Part shown: positions 48,442-56,779 of the stretch, piece by piece | Layout: the number at the start of each line of letters is the position of its first letter | Position numbering within the stretch: the stretch's first letter is position 1 | From: Thermithiobacillus tepidarius DSM 3134 | GTDB lineage: Bacteria > Pseudomonadota > Gammaproteobacteria > Acidithiobacillales > Thermithiobacillaceae | Length of the DNA: 64,000 bases | Assembly: GCF_000423825.1 (NCBI RefSeq) | Contig: NZ_AUIS01000007.1 | Coordinates: 1 to 64,000 of the forward strand | Reading direction: 5' to 3' | Program-made: the position numbers and the translations under genes | Notes under the pieces: model-generated | Database searches by the model: none | Seen by the model: the letters and a program-made list of their open reading frames with translations, nothing else | Told to the model about the DNA's origin: nothing

Positions 48442-48873
48442 TCAGGCCGGCGTTGCCCAATCGCGTTGCAGGTGCGCCAGAATACCGCTGGCCACTTCGC
48501 CCAATCCCTGCTCGTCGCGGGCGAGATCGGCGAGAATGACGAGTCCCAGCTCGCCGCCCCGCAACGGCCGCAGGTACAGGCGGCCGGCGCCGTAGCGGAT
48601 GGCGACGCTGTGAAGCTCGGTGGTGCCGCCGATCCGCTGCAAGGCGCGCTGGGAAAAAGCCAGCATGCCGGCGGCCAGGCCGGCAAAGTCCTCCTGGGTC
48701 ATGTCGCCCGGCAGCGCCGCCGCCAGCGACACCCCATCGCTGCTGACCAGTGCCAGACCCGACAGTCCGTGCTCGGCCCGGGCTCTGTCCAGCAAGTGCT
48801 GGGCGACGCGCAAGCCGGTGTCGCTGCGCAAGTCGCCGGCACTGGGCAGGTCGGGCATGCATTGTGCCGTCAT
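48442..48873 (-). CDS. Roadblock/LC7-domain protein
   Basis: This 143-aa soluble protein has the Roadblock/LC7 pattern: a helix (RVAQHLLDRARAEHGLSGLA), a strand with LVSSDGVSLAAALP, the long helix LAAGMLAFSQRALQRIG, then TELHSVAIRYGAGRLYLRPL and ELGLVILADLARDEQGLGEV. Bacterial members act as scaffolds or as regulators of small GTPases such as MglA; no GTPase gene is in the window. The ATG overlaps the upstream stop as ATGA, making it the third gene of a coupled module with the STAS protein and the phosphatase. GGAGAAGGCGC precedes the start. Confidence 0.82.
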   Translation of the reverse strand: MTAQCMPDLPSAGDLRSDTGLRVAQHLLDRARAEHGLSGLALVSSDGVSLAAALPGDMTQEDFAGLAAGMLAFSQRALQRIGGTTELHSVAIRYGAGRLYLRPLRGGELGLVILADLARDEQGLGEVASGILAHLQRDWATPA

Positions 48874-50090
48874 GCGCCTTCTCCCAGGGATGCTGCCGGG
48901 CGGGACAGAGCCTCCGGCAGGAATGCCCCGGGGCCGCCGAGCGGCAGGTAGCGCTTGAACAGCGTGGTGAGCATGTCCAGCTCCTCCGGTTCGGGCGCGC
49001 ACCAGCCCGCCAGCTGCATGTCGCGCAACACCTGCCGGCCCTTGTCCTCCTGTGCCATAGTCAGCAGGATCTCCCGCAGGGTTGCCTGCAAAGGCGCGCG
49101 CCCGGGCGCCACGCAGAGCAGGTGGAAAGCAAAGCAGGAGTCGCTTTCATCCAGCAGCCAAGTCGCCGAACGGGTCAGGCCCGACAGGCCGCGGTAGTTT
49201 TCGCTGAGCATGAAGACCAGATCCACTTCGCCCTGCAGCAGCATTTGCAGGGCCTTCATCTCCTGGCCGGCAAAGCGGAACTGTAGCCCGGCGGAATCCA
49301 ACCCGCTCTCGTCCAGCAGAAAGCGCCCCAAGAGATAAACGAAGCTGTTCGGTGTCGCGGCGGCCACCCGCGCGCCGGCGAAGTCGCGCAGGGCCCGGCG
49401 CGGGTCGTCGGCGCGCACGAGAATGCTGACTTCGTCGGTCTGTCCCTGCGGCCGCAGGACCGGCACGAATCCGGCGGACAGCATCAGGGCGCAGGCGTCG
49501 AAGGGCTTGGCGTAGACGATATCCGCCGCAACGCCCTGCTGCGCCGCAGCAATGCCCAGGGCGCCGTGCACCGGCTCGAAGTGGACGGCCCGCTCCAAGC
49601 GCCGCTGCAAGTAGGTATTGAAAAAGTACCAGCCGCTCAACTGCTGGCTGCTTTGCAGACTGACCCGGAAGTGCAGCCTGGCGCCGTCGTCCGCCGCAAC
49701 GGGTGCCGCCACCGGCGCCGTTGCGGACTGGAAGACGGCCGGACCGGCTGGAACAGCGGCTGCGGCCGGCGGACAGCCGCCTTCGGCCAGATAGTGACCC
49801 ATGCCGGTCATCTTGAAGAGCATGCCAACCATGCGATTGGGGTTTTTGACGTGAACGCGGATGCCGCGATCCCGCAGGCTCTCGAAGACCTTCAGAATCT
49901 GCGCCAGCCCCATGGAATTGACCCGCTGGACGGCGGAAAAGTCCAGGATCAGGCAGGCCTGCAGGTCCACTTCCAGCAGACCGGCCAGTACCGGTCCCGC
50001 GTCCACGTCCACCGAACCGCTCAATTGAAAACACGAGGTCTGCGCCTCGCTGGCGGGCTGCGCCGCGAGTGACAGGGATGGGCTAGGCAT
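48870..50090 (-). CDS. STAS domain fused to a PhnD-like binding-protein domain, cytoplasmic
   Basis: This 406-aa protein lacks a signal peptide. Residues 15-105 fit a STAS (anti-sigma antagonist) domain: ACLILDFSAVQRVNSMGLAQ, with Ser 59 where partner-switching proteins are phosphorylated, and GIRVHVKNPNRMVGMLF. After a Pro/Ala linker, residues 138-385 look like a PhnD/type 2 periplasmic-binding fold: GWYFFNTYLQRRLERAV, GVAADIVYAKPFDACAL, VAAATPNSFVYLLGRFLLDE, ALQMLLQGEVDLVFML. That domain is normally outside the membrane; here it appears cytoplasmic. It overlaps the phosphatase gene by eight bases and the Roadblock gene by four. The domain names are recognised by pattern only. Confidence 0.75.
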   Translation of the reverse strand: MPSPSLSLAAQPASEAQTSCFQLSGSVDVDAGPVLAGLLEVDLQACLILDFSAVQRVNSMGLAQILKVFESLRDRGIRVHVKNPNRMVGMLFKMTGMGHYLAEGGCPPAAAAVPAGPAVFQSATAPVAAPVAADDGARLHFRVSLQSSQQLSGWYFFNTYLQRRLERAVHFEPVHGALGIAAAQQGVAADIVYAKPFDACALMLSAGFVPVLRPQGQTDEVSILVRADDPRRALRDFAGARVAAATPNSFVYLLGRFLLDESGLDSAGLQFRFAGQEMKALQMLLQGEVDLVFMLSENYRGLSGLTRSATWLLDESDSCFAFHLLCVAPGRAPLQATLREILLTMAQEDKGRQVLRDMQLAGWCAPEPEELDMLTTLFKRYLPLGGPGAFLPEALSRPAASLGEGA

Positions 50091-52155
50091 GGCTCGGCAC
50101 CTCGTTGACTTCGCTGTGATAGAGAAACTGAAAGCCCGTGTCGGCCTCCGCATCCAAGGGACTGGCCAAGTCCAGGAGGGCGGTGATCTGCGTCCGTCGC
50201 TGGGGATGCACACGGATCTGCAGATAGTCGGCCAGACGCCAGATGAGGTAGAGACCGGCACCGCCCACCCCCGCCTCCAGCCCCTGTCCCGCCAGATGCC
50301 GCACCAGCCGGTTCAGAAAGGTCGCGGGCGTCAGGGTGCCCCAGTCGTCGCTGACCGCGATCCCCAGGCACTGCCCGCCCAGGGCAAGCTCCAGACGCAA
50401 GCTCTCCGTGGCGGCCAGGGTGCGGCGCATGCCCTTGCTGTAGAGGGGGCGCCCCTGGCCGTCGCGCGGCGCGGCGTAAAGGCCGTTTTCCAGCATCTCG
50501 TCCAGAAGCAGCACCACGGTTTCCAGGTGCTCCGCCGTCAGGGCGCCACGCTCCGCCAGCCACGCCTCCGCCTCGCTCATGATGAAGGACTTGTCCTCGC
50601 TGCCGGTGAGATCGAAAGCGCGCCGCTCCCGCGTTGCCGGCAGGAGGCGGTGGAGGTCGTCCGCACCGTCCGACGGCTCCCGGTGCTGGAGCAGGAGCTC
50701 CTCCCAGCCCAGCTGCTGCAAAAAAGCCTGGCGGCGCGGCAGCACCCGCCGGATGCCGTCCCGGCACAGGCGCGGCAGCAGGTCGGCGAAGCAGCTCTCG
50801 GCCAGGAAGACCATGGACTGGCGCGCGATGCGGGGAGAAATGGGCGCCGGATTGACCCGGTAGAAGGCGTCGGCGATGCGGATCAGGTCGCTGCCCGGCT
50901 GCGGGCTCTGCGGTACCGGGCCAGGAACGGCCTCGGGGCGCTCCTGGAAGTCCAGCACGAAGAGGGTGACGTCATCGGCAAAGCTGTCGCCGCCGCAGTG
51001 CACATGCAAGGCATCCAGCACGGCGGCTTTCAACTGCGCAGCCGGTGCCGCGCCGTGCGCGTCGAGCAGCGCCTCCAGGCGCTCGTAGCCAAAGGGCTCA
51101 CCTACAGGCGACTCGGCCTCCACCACGCCGTCCGTGTACAGGAACAGGCGGTCGCCCACCTCGAAATCCACGATCTGGCTGGCGTAGTCGGCCTTGGCCT
51201 CCTTGCCCAGCGGCAGGCCACCCGCCTCCAGCATGGACCAGGTGCCATGTCCGGCACGCCGCAGGTAGGGAAACTGATGGCCCGCATTGGCAAAGCGCAG
51301 CGTGCCGTTGCGGGTGTCCACGCTGGCACAGAAGAGGGTCATGAGCAGGGATTGGCGGGCCGTGGCCAACAGGGTCTGGTTCAGCCGCTCCAGGATTTCC
51401 CGGGGATCGGAGACTCCTTCCGTGGCCAGCAGGTTCACGCCGGCCTTGGCGGCGCTCACCATGGTGCCCGAGGCCACGCCGTGGCCGCTCACGTCGCCCA
51501 CCAGCAGTACAGTCCGGTGCGGCCCGGCGGCGAAGTAGTCGTAGTAGTCGCCGCCCACTTCACTGGAGGTGATCATGTGCGCCTGTCCCGCCAAGCCCGC
51601 CATCCGCATCTCCGGCGGCGGCAGCAGGGTGCGCTGCAGGAGAGCGGCATTGGCCACCTCGCTTTGCAGCCGCCGACTGAGCACCTGCAGGGTATCGATC
51701 AAGCGGGCTTGGCTTTCGGAAATGCTCAGCATCAGGTCGGCCACGGGCACCACCCCCAGGATGCGCCCCTGCGCCTGCACCGGCACGGCTTCCAGCATCA
51801 GCTCCGGATCGTGCTCGAGCAGGTCGCGCAGGACTTGATCCACCCGGCTGTCTGCAGCGGGGCAAAACGGCACGTAGCCGAGCTGCGGCGCATGGGCCAG
51901 CAGATCACGGAGGGTTTTGCGGATGAAGAGCTCCTTGGCATAGGCCCGGCTGAAGTAGTTCAGCAGGGTGCGTCTAGCCAGGAGGTGGAAGCCGGCTTCG
52001 TCGAGCACCGGCAACGCCAACAGAGTCTGCTGGCTGCCGAAGCGCTCCAGCACGGCGGCAACCGGCTCATCGAGATGGGTCGGCTGGATGAAGGTGACCA
52101 GATCCCGCAGGACGGGAACGGCAAACGCGGGACGTCCACCAGCAAGTGCAGCCAA
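50083..52155 (-). CDS. SpoIIE-type PP2C phosphatase fused to a HATPase domain
   Basis: This 690-aa soluble protein has four visible parts. Residues 15-150 look like a CBS-type pair (LLALPVLDEAGFHLLARRTL, ILGVVPVADLML). A short coiled coil at 150-180 (RRLQSEVANAALLQRTLLPP) leads to a SpoIIE/RsbU phosphatase at 185-405. Its metal-site words are GGDYYDYF (Asp 203), GDVSGHGVASG (Asp 221), LYTDGVVEA and DDVTLFVL. The last 150 residues are a GHKL ATPase, with N box DEMLENGLYAAP, SDDWG and GVGGAGLYLIWRLADYL. A phosphatase and an anti-sigma-like kinase in one chain is unusual. The start is TTG 52155 with AAAAGGAC before it. Confidence 0.82.
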   Translation of the reverse strand: MAALAGGRPAFAVPVLRDLVTFIQPTHLDEPVAAVLERFGSQQTLLALPVLDEAGFHLLARRTLLNYFSRAYAKELFIRKTLRDLLAHAPQLGYVPFCPAADSRVDQVLRDLLEHDPELMLEAVPVQAQGRILGVVPVADLMLSISESQARLIDTLQVLSRRLQSEVANAALLQRTLLPPPEMRMAGLAGQAHMITSSEVGGDYYDYFAAGPHRTVLLVGDVSGHGVASGTMVSAAKAGVNLLATEGVSDPREILERLNQTLLATARQSLLMTLFCASVDTRNGTLRFANAGHQFPYLRRAGHGTWSMLEAGGLPLGKEAKADYASQIVDFEVGDRLFLYTDGVVEAESPVGEPFGYERLEALLDAHGAAPAAQLKAAVLDALHVHCGGDSFADDVTLFVLDFQERPEAVPGPVPQSPQPGSDLIRIADAFYRVNPAPISPRIARQSMVFLAESCFADLLPRLCRDGIRRVLPRRQAFLQQLGWEELLLQHREPSDGADDLHRLLPATRERRAFDLTGSEDKSFIMSEAEAWLAERGALTAEHLETVVLLLDEMLENGLYAAPRDGQGRPLYSKGMRRTLAATESLRLELALGGQCLGIAVSDDWGTLTPATFLNRLVRHLAGQGLEAGVGGAGLYLIWRLADYLQIRVHPQRRTQITALLDLASPLDAEADTGFQFLYHSEVNEVPSHA

Positions 52156-52194
52156 AGATTGTGTCCTTTTCCAGAAGGCGTTCTTTTCGAGGGC

Positions 52195-52216
52195 CGCCCA
52201 GGGGCGGCCCTTCTGC
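52195..52216. terminator. Possible terminator between minE and the phosphatase gene
   Basis: GGGCCGCC and GGCGGCCC form a stem with a small loop in the 121-bp gap between minE and the TTG-started phosphatase gene. There is no clean T-run on the minus strand, so it may be weak or only separate the two transcripts partly. Confidence 0.4.
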
Positions 52217-54294: not shown

Positions 54295-54903
54295 ATGGAT
54301 CAAAGCCAAGAACAACAGCAAAGCGAGCTGTGCAACCGCTTCAAGGAACAGCGCGAGGCCAAGCGCTGGGTCGGCTACTTCGCCAACCTGCACGAGGGCG
54401 AGGACCCCGTCGCCTACAGGCTCTTCGGCGCCCTGATGCGCTTCAAGATGGGCCTGATGATCCTGGCGCCGGACCAGCCGGAACGCTACGAGCCCGTCTA
54501 CCGGGACAGCCTCAAGTACCACCTGCAGACCATCCGCCACGGCCGGCTGGCCACCAGCTTCGCCCCGCTGAAGACCCGGGTCTACTTCATCGAAACCCCC
54601 GGCGCCATGGACGCCTTCTATGCCTGCGCCGATTTCTGCGTACCGGGCGGCACGCTGGGCGGCGGGCCCGTGGACCTGATCACCCCGATCCGCGCCGGCT
54701 GCCCGCTCGTGCTCGGGCCGGCCATGCCCAGCAACGCCCTGAAGCGCGGCCTGCTGGAAGCGCAGGGCGCGGTGGCGGCGGAGAGCCTGGAGCAGGTGGT
54801 CGAATTGGCCAAGATCTGGATCGCCGATCCCGCCGCGGCCAAGGCCCATGCCGAGCGCGCGGCGGCCTGGCTGGCCGCCAACCCGGCGCTGGCCGGCGCC
54901 TGA
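54295..54903 (+). CDS. Protein resembling the C-terminal half of Kdo transferase (WaaA)
   Basis: This 202-aa protein has no signal peptide. Its second half, from residue 95, matches the donor-binding half of WaaA-like GT-B enzymes: TPGAMDAFYACADFCVPGGT, LGGGPVDLITPIRAGCPLVL, GPAMPSNALKRGLLEAQGAV and a closing helix with KAHAERAAAWLAANP. In WaaA the corresponding parts are the ADLAFVGGSL-like strand, the GGHNPLEPAALG loop and the GP-N turn. The N-terminal 90 residues (KRWVGYFANLHEGEDPVAYR, LFGALMRFKMGLMILAPDQP) partly fit the inter-domain start of the same half. There is no acceptor domain, so full transferase activity is doubtful. Family placement is from motif comparison only. Confidence 0.6.
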   Translation: MDQSQEQQQSELCNRFKEQREAKRWVGYFANLHEGEDPVAYRLFGALMRFKMGLMILAPDQPERYEPVYRDSLKYHLQTIRHGRLATSFAPLKTRVYFIETPGAMDAFYACADFCVPGGTLGGGPVDLITPIRAGCPLVLGPAMPSNALKRGLLEAQGAVAAESLEQVVELAKIWIADPAAAKAHAERAAAWLAANPALAGA

Positions 54904-54966: not shown

Positions 54967-56208
54967 TTACTTCTTCTGCGCCTTCAGATCATTGTAGAAG
55001 AAGCGGATCATGAAGCGCAGCACGTACTGGGTGTCCTTGGAGAAGAGGATGCGCAGCAGACCCATGATGCCGCCACCCTTCTTCTCCTGGCCGCGCAGCT
55101 CTTCCTGGGTCTGCTCCAGGGCCGCCAGGGCAATGCCGACCTGGGGCTGATAGCGCTTGGCCAGCACCATGCCCTCATCGATCCAGGCCTTCAGCTGCGC
55201 GTCGCTGGGCAGATAGGGCTGCAGGGCGTCGATGGCGGTGCTGGCCCGCTTCAGCAGACCGCTGCGATGCACGGCGCCGGCGACGTTGATGAGGTCGGGC
55301 AGCATCTCGTCCAGGTGTGCTTGGCGCACACCCGCCAGCATGCGCCGCACCCGCTCGGCCAGGCTCGGCGCATCGCCGACCACCAGCGCCTGGGCCTGCT
55401 GGGCGATGTCCAGCCACTCCTGCGCCGCGGCCTTCACCTGGGCCATGACGGCAGCCACATCCAGGTCCTTGAAGGCTTCGGGCGCCACATCCTTGAGCGT
55501 GCCGATGCCGATGCTCAGCTGCCCGCCCCAGTACTCCGCCTGATCCAGCAGACCGCTCACGCGCACCGCCAGATTGTCGGCGTCGCCCTGGGCCAGCGCC
55601 TTGACACGCATGGCGATGCGCAACCAGGCATCGGCCGCTTCCTGCAGCTCGTCCACCTTCTCCGGCAGGTTCATGGCGAGCACGGCTTCGCTCAGCGCCG
55701 CCAGCGCCTGCTTGACCGTATCCATCCAGTAAGGGAGCTGGGCCTGGAGCTGGTACACCTTGTCGATCAGGGCCTGCAGGGATTCGCCCTGGGGCAGCGT
55801 GGAAGTGGCGCGCAGCACAATCTGCACGCGGTTGAGCATGCCGCTGTCGTGCAGCAGCGCCAGGGTATCCAGCAGTTGCGGCAGCACCACGTCCAGCTGG
55901 GCGCGCTTCAGCGCGTGCAGCATGTCGCGCACCCGCTCGTTGGCTGACTCGGCGGAGTCGATGTGCAGCAGGTCCAGCGCTTCCTGGGAGGTTTCCTTGA
56001 GGGCCTGCAGCTTGGGCCGGAAGGCGGCAATGACCTTGTCCTCGTCCACCGCTTCGGGCAGTTCCGAGAGCACGTCCCGGACCAGGGTCAGCAGGTCCTC
56101 GATCTGAAAGGCCCAATCGCCGATCTTGGCCAGCCCGGCCCATTCCTTCTGCGTCAGCGCTCCCGCCTGCGCGGCGCCCACTTCACTTTTCATCATTGCA
56201 TTGCCCAT
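54967..56208 (-). CDS. Helical protein with internal duplication, DUF1641-like end
   Basis: This protein of about 413 aa is almost wholly alpha-helical, acidic and leucine-rich, without membrane or signal segments. Two parts look duplicated: LDVVLPQLLDTLALLHDSGM with LNRVQIVLRATSTL (about residues 120-155), and LDEMLPDLINVAGAVHRSGL with LKRASTAIDAL (about 300-335). The C-terminus (GIMGLLRILFSKDTQYVLRF) resembles the end of DUF1641 proteins, a tentative match. GGGAGA stands six bases before ATG 56208 (MGNAMMKSEV); another ATG at 56214 is too close to that site. It is a single gene with an AT-rich promoter region (56225-56290). Function unknown. Confidence 0.7.
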   Translation of the reverse strand: MGNAMMKSEVGAAQAGALTQKEWAGLAKIGDWAFQIEDLLTLVRDVLSELPEAVDEDKVIAAFRPKLQALKETSQEALDLLHIDSAESANERVRDMLHALKRAQLDVVLPQLLDTLALLHDSGMLNRVQIVLRATSTLPQGESLQALIDKVYQLQAQLPYWMDTVKQALAALSEAVLAMNLPEKVDELQEAADAWLRIAMRVKALAQGDADNLAVRVSGLLDQAEYWGGQLSIGIGTLKDVAPEAFKDLDVAAVMAQVKAAAQEWLDIAQQAQALVVGDAPSLAERVRRMLAGVRQAHLDEMLPDLINVAGAVHRSGLLKRASTAIDALQPYLPSDAQLKAWIDEGMVLAKRYQPQVGIALAALEQTQEELRGQEKKGGGIMGLLRILFSKDTQYVLRFMIRFFYNDLKAQKK

Positions 56209-56779
56209 TGGCATTCTCCCCCACTGACATGACCCGATAAAATATTTAAATGATAAAATAAACAGATACTTAAAAACGAAGCGGCCTGATGACGATTTTG
56301 TAACACAAAGCACGCGGCTTGCCTAGAATTTCTTGAAGAGCGCCTGGGGCGCGTGCAGGAGCAAAGTACCGCGCGGCCAGGAGCGCCGACCGTCCCGCAG
56401 CCTTCTCCTGCCTGGCTCCCGGCGGGAGGGGGTGTGCCGACGTGGTACCGTGCCAAAGCCTGGCGGGCTGGCCAGCCCGCTCCTACGACCAGCGGCGACA
56501 GCGGGGTTCAGGATCTCGGCTTTCCATCCCCTTTGTCCCGCCGCGTCGCGCGAGGCGGCAGGTCGGGGCGTCTTCTGGTTACTTTTCCGGGGCGCACCGG
56601 AAAAGCAACCGGCTGCCGGGCAGCCTCCGACACCGGACCCAGCCCGCTCCAACTTTAAAACCCGTTGGACTCAACCCAACCCCCACCTCGCCCCCGGCGC
56701 CCACCCCATTTCTCCCTTTCATCCGGGAAACCAGCCTTGCTAGGATAGTCTAAGGTTATCCAGCCCCACAGGAGCCGGC
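56209..56779. repeat. Intergenic region with promoter DNA and a REP-like dispersed repeat
   Basis: The left part (56225-56290) is very AT-rich and should hold the promoter of the minus-strand helical protein. From 56402 to 56490 is a GC-rich repeat: CTTCTCCT, then TGCCGACGTGGTACCGTGCC, AAAGCCTGGCGGG, and the palindrome GCGGGCTGGCCAGCCCGC with CTCCTAC. The TGCC.ACGTG.TACCGTGCC word and its flanks match the repeat at 8470-8501. The rest, to 56760, is Pro/Ser-biased in all frames and contains no supported gene. Confidence 0.55.

Follow-up and report, generated by a model that had tools for sequence, protein, structure and literature searches.

The partner-switch mechanism, the fusion of its phosphatase and kinase on one chain, and outputs other than sigma factors are already known (PMC6482189, PMC10120452, and PMC8256260). 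HsbR-HsbA of Pseudomonas aeruginosa and CrsR-CrsA of Shewanella combine a PP2C/SpoIIE phosphatase and a GHKL serine kinase on one chain with a STAS substrate, and HsbA also acts on a target that is not a sigma factor, the cyclase HsbD. SypE of Vibrio fischeri is a bifunctional kinase/phosphatase that acts on the STAS serine of SypA, whose target is unknown and is not a sigma factor. Here, we describe three overlapping genes in a 64,000-nt stretch of Thermithiobacillus tepidarius DSM 3134 (contig NZ_AUIS01000007.1, positions 1 to 64,000; hereafter, the window). Genes 1 and 2 very probably form a partner switch on the HsbR/CrsR/SypE scheme, judging by their domains and motifs, and gene 3 encodes a Roadblock protein. 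The statement in the initial annotation that the three activities usually sit on separate proteins and end on a sigma factor was too strong, because HsbR, CrsR, and SypE are one-chain proteins and SypA, HsbA-HsbD, and SiaC have non-sigma targets.

Also close to this locus are the Group 3 MglA/MglB systems of beta- and gamma-Proteobacteria. In the part of the survey by Wuichet and Sogaard-Andersen that treats them (PMC4316618), the Group 3 neighborhood consists of a receiver/winged helix-turn-helix (wHTH)-like protein, MglA, and one or two MglB, and the systems are placed in Neisseria, Xanthomonas, and many other proteobacteria. The passage on the Group 3 locus names no partner switch, and PhnD is not mentioned in the text of that 2014 survey. 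The best explanation of the whole locus, in which we place about even confidence, is a partner switch whose STAS protein acquired a domain of a GTPase module and feeds a Roadblock/Ras-like GTPase. The three genes are as follows.

52155-50083, minus strand: gene 1, TTG start, 690 amino acids; predicted bifunctional SpoIIE phosphatase/SpoIIAB-like serine kinase (open reading frame, Pfam, homologues in nine other loci)
50090-48870, minus strand: gene 2, ATG start, 406 amino acids; STAS fused to a predicted cytoplasmic PhnD-like ligand-binding domain (open reading frame, Pfam, AlphaFold model)
48873-48442, minus strand: gene 3, ATG start, 143 amino acids; divergent Roadblock/LC7 protein (Robl_LC7, 33.1 bits, with the Roadblock domain at 48562..48801; approximately 30% identity to MglB-type Roadblocks)

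All three genes lie on the minus strand, and the overlaps initially annotated (8 bases between genes 1 and 2 and 4 bases between genes 2 and 3) were exact in the open reading frame coordinates. Domain matches over cut-off in the three genes were far beyond chance.

Gene 2: STAS fused to a PhnD-like domain

49794..50030, minus strand: STAS domain, residues 21-99, 37.2 bits
49914..49916, minus strand: codon of Ser59 in the motif N-S-M-G, candidate phosphorylation site, invariant in relatives
48984..49655, minus strand: PhnD-like domain (Phosphonate-bd, PF12974), residues 146-369, 109.8 bits

The STAS domain with a phosphorylatable serine, as initially annotated, was well above the Pfam cut-off (37.2 bits vs. 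22.6). Ser59 of N-S-M-G was invariant in 9 of 9 aligned sequences and was also found in the copy from Sphaerotilus. In the AlphaFold model of gene 2, it stands at the N-end of the helix 59-74, which we take to be the position of Ser58 in SpoIIAA. Ser59 would be phosphorylated and dephosphorylated with an exchange of partners.

The largest domain of gene 2 was the PhnD-like domain, which the initial annotation did not describe and which is the most informative part of the module. The model consists of two domains separated by a disordered linker (residues 103-135), and the fold of the PhnD-like half matched AioX, ArrX, PtxB, PhnD, and XAC2383; no solved relative of gene 2 was found by sequence. 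AioX, ArrX, and XAC2383 are signaling receptors or sensors rather than transport proteins; they share the PhnD fold but are periplasmic, whereas the domain in the window is predicted to be cytoplasmic, behind STAS. By inspection, gene 2 showed no signal peptide, and the protein starts with STAS. Gene 2 lacks the features of the exported binding protein (PhnD) of a phosphonate/phosphite ATP-binding cassette transporter, and permease or ATPase genes are not among its neighbors.

Gene 1: phosphatase and kinase on one chain

51706..52155, minus strand: N-terminal sensor region, residues 1-150, possibly CBS-pair-like (CBS, 18.5 bits)
50947..51522, minus strand: SpoIIE (PP2C-type phosphatase) domain, Pfam 160.6 bits, 5.5e-47
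50197..50583, minus strand: GHKL ATPase/serine kinase domain, HATPase_c_2 28.4 bits, fold match to SpoIIAB/RsbW

The initial annotation had described a CBS-like sensor, a SpoIIE phosphatase, and a GHKL ATPase in one chain. The latter two were recovered, SpoIIE clearly (160.6 bits vs. a cut-off of 25, E = 5.5e-47) and HATPase_c_2 narrowly (28.4 vs. 27.4), so that both HATPase and STAS passed the profile thresholds. The sensor region fell below its cut-off (18.5 vs. 24), and its CBS-like identity is at most suggestive, as judged from the profile score; no credible solved relative of it was found in the PDB. The region varies among relatives: Acidithiobacillus has PAS with membrane segments here and Methylocaldum has PilJ-PAS, as against the CBS-like region of the window. 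The SpoIIE motifs GGDYYD, DVSGHG, TDG, and DD were conserved across gene 1 relatives.

Because the HATPase score was marginal, AlphaFold was used to model the C-terminal 273 residues of gene 1 with eight relatives (mean predicted local distance difference test score, 80; predicted template modeling score, 0.84). The best fold matches of this model in the PDB were SpoIIAB and RsbW, which act as serine kinases in classical partner switches, with SiaB further down the list. Searching PDB sequences with a profile of the kinase region gave nothing credible, and fold comparison alone succeeded. The N-box (E553 and N557) and the G2 box were invariant across gene 1 relatives; E553 is presumably the counterpart of the catalytic Glu of SpoIIAB. 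The G1 box was unusual (D-N/D-W-G). The phosphatase/kinase/STAS partner switch proposed initially was supported by the domains and by the invariant serine.

The switch differs from those described in its input and its substrate. HsbR and CrsR have a receiver-domain input and STAS-only substrates, whereas gene 1 and its relatives carry a CBS-like or PAS/PilJ input (no receiver domain was matched by Pfam in gene 1) and gene 2 joins STAS to a PhnD-like domain. SypE differs in its domain order, kinase-receiver-phosphatase, and SypA is STAS only.

PhnD-like family and Group 3 MglA loci

Standalone PhnD-like proteins were surveyed in the sampled genomes outside the order, of which 20 had a match and 18 a strong match (over 140 bits). 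In 18 of the 18 strong-match genomes, an MglB-like Roadblock gene lay within approximately 0.6 kb of the standalone PhnD-like gene and a wHTH-Roadblock gene lay within 1.6 kb. Most of these runs also had genes for a small GTPase and for PAS, receiver-like, and tetratricopeptide repeat (TPR)-like proteins, and they contain the Group 3 MglA gene neighborhood (PMC4316618); our assignment of loci to Group 3 is based on gene content, taxonomy, and the G5 motif (DAR/DGR) rather than on a GTPase tree. The two exceptions among the 20 genomes were the weakest PhnD-like matches. The closest standalone relatives of the PhnD-like half had, by inspection, no N-terminal extension able to hold a signal peptide. 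In the tree, the fused PhnD domains formed one clade (99/99), far from transport-type proteins. Since the PhnD-like half belongs to a family otherwise found in Group 3 MglA/MglB loci, a Roadblock/GTPase complex is the likeliest target of gene 2; from genome context, we regard this partner as plausible, with a little less than even confidence.

Group 3-type MglA loci of Gammaproteobacteria (L095-L102 and L104-L111) regularly had PAS, TPR-like, and cytoplasmic PhnD-like proteins beside the GTPase and two Roadblocks. Some had two PhnD-like genes (L096:4820-7218 and L100:4796-6518), one of those in L096 being very divergent. The standalone PhnD-like copy of Acidithiobacillia follows an SCP2 (sterol-carrier-like) gene (L038:6464-7713, L039:5906-7143, and L043:5912-7246) and is not near Roadblock genes. 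TatD- and ThiF-like genes, and a UbiD-like gene in Acidithiobacillus, were named by eye near this copy. This placement suggests a different use, perhaps one related to lipids or quinones.

Conservation of the gene pair

Genes 1 and 2 are conserved as a pair, whereas the trio is not a fixed unit. Outside the window, relatives of gene 2 that carry the STAS-PhnD fusion came from four species of Acidithiobacillus, from Methylocaldum, from two metagenome-assembled genomes (one Methylococcaceae and one Crenotrichaceae), from a contig assigned to a Methyloversatilis bin, and from a plasmid of Sphaerotilus sulfidivorans. Gene 1 directly preceded gene 2 in 10 of 10 loci, including the window, and in nearly all of them the two overlapped by 1 to 29 bases. 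In a sample of 369 genomes of the class (genome samples were drawn evenly and were not exhaustive), the gene 1 kinase region was confined to two genomes, and the STAS-PhnD fusion was confined to the same two. The pair of the betaproteobacterium S. sulfidivorans (L094:12188-16269, NZ_CP035710.1) is annotated merely as a SpoIIE phosphatase and a PhnD/SsuA/transferrin-family binding protein. A search of plasmids for the kinase region with the single window sequence returned none, and the Sphaerotilus copy surfaced through gene 2.

A direct association of the pair with Roadblock/GTPase genes was observed in Crenotrichaceae (L067, a contig that starts inside gene 1), in which gene 1, gene 2, TPR, receiver-like, GTPase, wHTH-Roadblock, and Roadblock genes form one run with the pair immediately upstream. 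No similarity was found between the SpoIIE-kinase linker and the receiver-like protein encoded in Group 3 loci. In A. sulfuriphilus, a convergent Roadblock gene lies 1.5 kb past the pair. In A. ferrianus, a small GTPase gene lies 3.5 kb from the pair, and the same GTPase gene is present at that site in a relative without the pair (L088). Contig 20 of the window's genome carries a Group 3-type locus with a GTPase gene and two Roadblock genes, which could be the source of a GTPase for gene 3. An orphan MglB of the Group 3 system in Snodgrassella alters pilus-related behavior (PMC11112851), so there is precedent for a Roadblock protein whose gene is separate from that of the GTPase; by analogy, gene 3 could act in the same way.

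Several results weigh against a Roadblock/GTPase target. The three-gene order that the initial annotation took to be fixed was not found outside the window, Roadblock being the third gene in 0 of the 9 other pair loci. No Roadblock or GTPase gene was seen near the pair in most of these nine loci, some of whose contigs end soon after it (L064 and L035); gene calling relied on simple codon-position composition and on profiles built from a few seeds, which could overlook Roadblock genes close to other pairs if these are small or divergent. No GTPase gene is present at the window locus, which does not support the self-contained switch that had been proposed. An output linked to a Roadblock/GTPase system is plausible. 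The GTPase and receiver-like genes of Group 3 loci are both lacking there, whereas a Roadblock protein, perhaps of the MglB type, and the PhnD-like family occur in both; the receiver-like/wHTH partner gene, not found at the window locus, is present on contig 20 and in the Crenotrichaceae contig. Gene 3 passed the Roadblock threshold (33.1 bits vs. 23), as initially annotated, but was only 27-35% identical to Group 3-type MglB. Support for placing the fused clade beside the PhnD-like proteins of Group 3-type loci was moderate (89/92). Finally, an amt gene lies 70-85 bases downstream of the pair, on the same strand, in all four Acidithiobacillus species.

Alternative outputs

A switch like those of CrsR and HsbR could have as its final target a sigma factor whose gene lies elsewhere (RpoS or FliA/FlgM, for instance), with the kinase of gene 1 doubling as an anti-sigma factor and the Roadblock gene being incidental. 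The same phosphatase and GHKL kinase on one chain are found in HsbR and CrsR, whose kinase domain binds RpoS, and SpoIIAB and RsbW, to which the gene 1 kinase is closest in fold, are anti-sigma factors. We consider this unlikely: no sigma-factor gene is present at the window locus, in agreement with the initial annotation, the pair loci inspected showed neither a sigma nor an anti-sigma gene, and the PhnD-like fusion has no place in the CrsR/HsbR scheme but does have one in Roadblock/GTPase loci.

It is similarly unlikely that gene 3 is a chance passenger and that the pair alone is the module, with an unknown output. The presence of the Roadblock gene in third position in the window only favors this explanation, but the ATGA overlap of 4 bases between genes 2 and 3 suggests translational coupling and the PhnD-like family itself travels with Roadblock genes. 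In addition, an overlap by chance would be improbable because the genome of approximately 3 Mb has three Roadblock genes.

Less probable still is a nitrogen switch, in which the pair would control either an ammonium transporter or the P-II protein that partners it, with a small ligand sensed by the PhnD-like domain. The amt gene after the pair in Acidithiobacillus is joined, in three of the four loci, by another amt and/or P-II gene just upstream, or the contig is cut there. Comparison of L034:4271-13031 with L088:5104-8321 showed gene 1, gene 2, and amt2 lying between amt1 and a GGDEF-EAL gene, which are neighbors in the species without the pair. However, the pair loci of Thermithiobacillus, Methylocaldum, Methylococcaceae STB_183, and Sphaerotilus showed no amt gene, and amt2 may simply be co-inherited with the pair. 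The amt2 of pair-bearing Acidithiobacillus resembles amt1.

A cyclic di-GMP output like that of HsbA-HsbD or SiaC-SiaD, in which gene 2 would activate a diguanylate cyclase, is the least probable. In its favor are the GGDEF-EAL gene close to the pair in Acidithiobacillus and a weak match between the SpoIIE part of gene 1 and the SiaA model (72 bits, cut-off 700). Against it, that GGDEF-EAL gene occupies the same site without the pair (L088), and no GGDEF gene adjoins the module in the window.

Proposed mechanism

In the partner switch feeding a Roadblock/GTPase, the variable N-terminal sensor of gene 1 would tip the balance between the SpoIIE phosphatase and the SpoIIAB-like kinase, both of which, according to domains and motifs, would act on Ser59 of the gene 2 STAS domain. 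Depending on the phosphorylation state of Ser59, the kinase would either retain gene 2 or free it to bind its target. Locally, that target would be the gene 3 Roadblock, acting as an orphan MglB/MglC on a GTPase encoded elsewhere, for example, on contig 20. Instead of a sigma factor, the expected output would be polarity, type IV pili, or surface behavior. A ligand of the PhnD-like domain may serve as a second input. Our tentative proposal is that a STAS-fused cytoplasmic PhnD-like adaptor links a serine-phosphorylation partner switch directly to a polarity module of Ras-like GTPase and Roadblock.

If true, two kinds of signaling previously unlinked in the searchable open-access literature would be joined. 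No paper on the STAS-PhnD fusion, its tie to a protein family found in Group 3 MglA loci, or a combination of Roadblock and SpoIIE was found in the open-access literature searched (subscription papers lay outside the search). The signal input to Group 3 MglA systems is largely unknown so far; if gene 2 is a bridge, then Ser59 phosphorylation would be a handle on a bacterial Ras-like GTPase, the PhnD-like protein of Group 3 loci would be a candidate ligand sensor, and the input side would be directly testable.

Other features of the locus

52189..52212, no strand assigned: strong hairpin between minE and gene 1

The genes adjoining the module are glgA, minE, and minD; transporter genes are not among them. 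The hairpin may separate the three-gene module from minCDE transcription.

The module shares STAS, SpoIIE, and GHKL parts with the RsbRST stressosome but is not part of one, and an RsbR-RsbS-RsbT set is absent from the window locus. A classical stressosome-like run is present on contig 43 of the same genome (L041:8037-13746), comprising RsbR-like, RsbS-like STAS, RsbT-like ATPase, SpoIIE (RsbX-like), histidine kinase, and response regulator genes; its SpoIIE is the sole other SpoIIE match in the genome.

Elsewhere in the window, positions 54967-56313 (minus strand) encode a 448-amino-acid protein whose segments look internally repeated and which has no Pfam match over cut-off. A short protein encoded at 54295-54903 (plus strand) resembles only the C-terminal half of Kdo transferase (WaaA) and may be either an orphan fragment or a GT-B half that stands alone.

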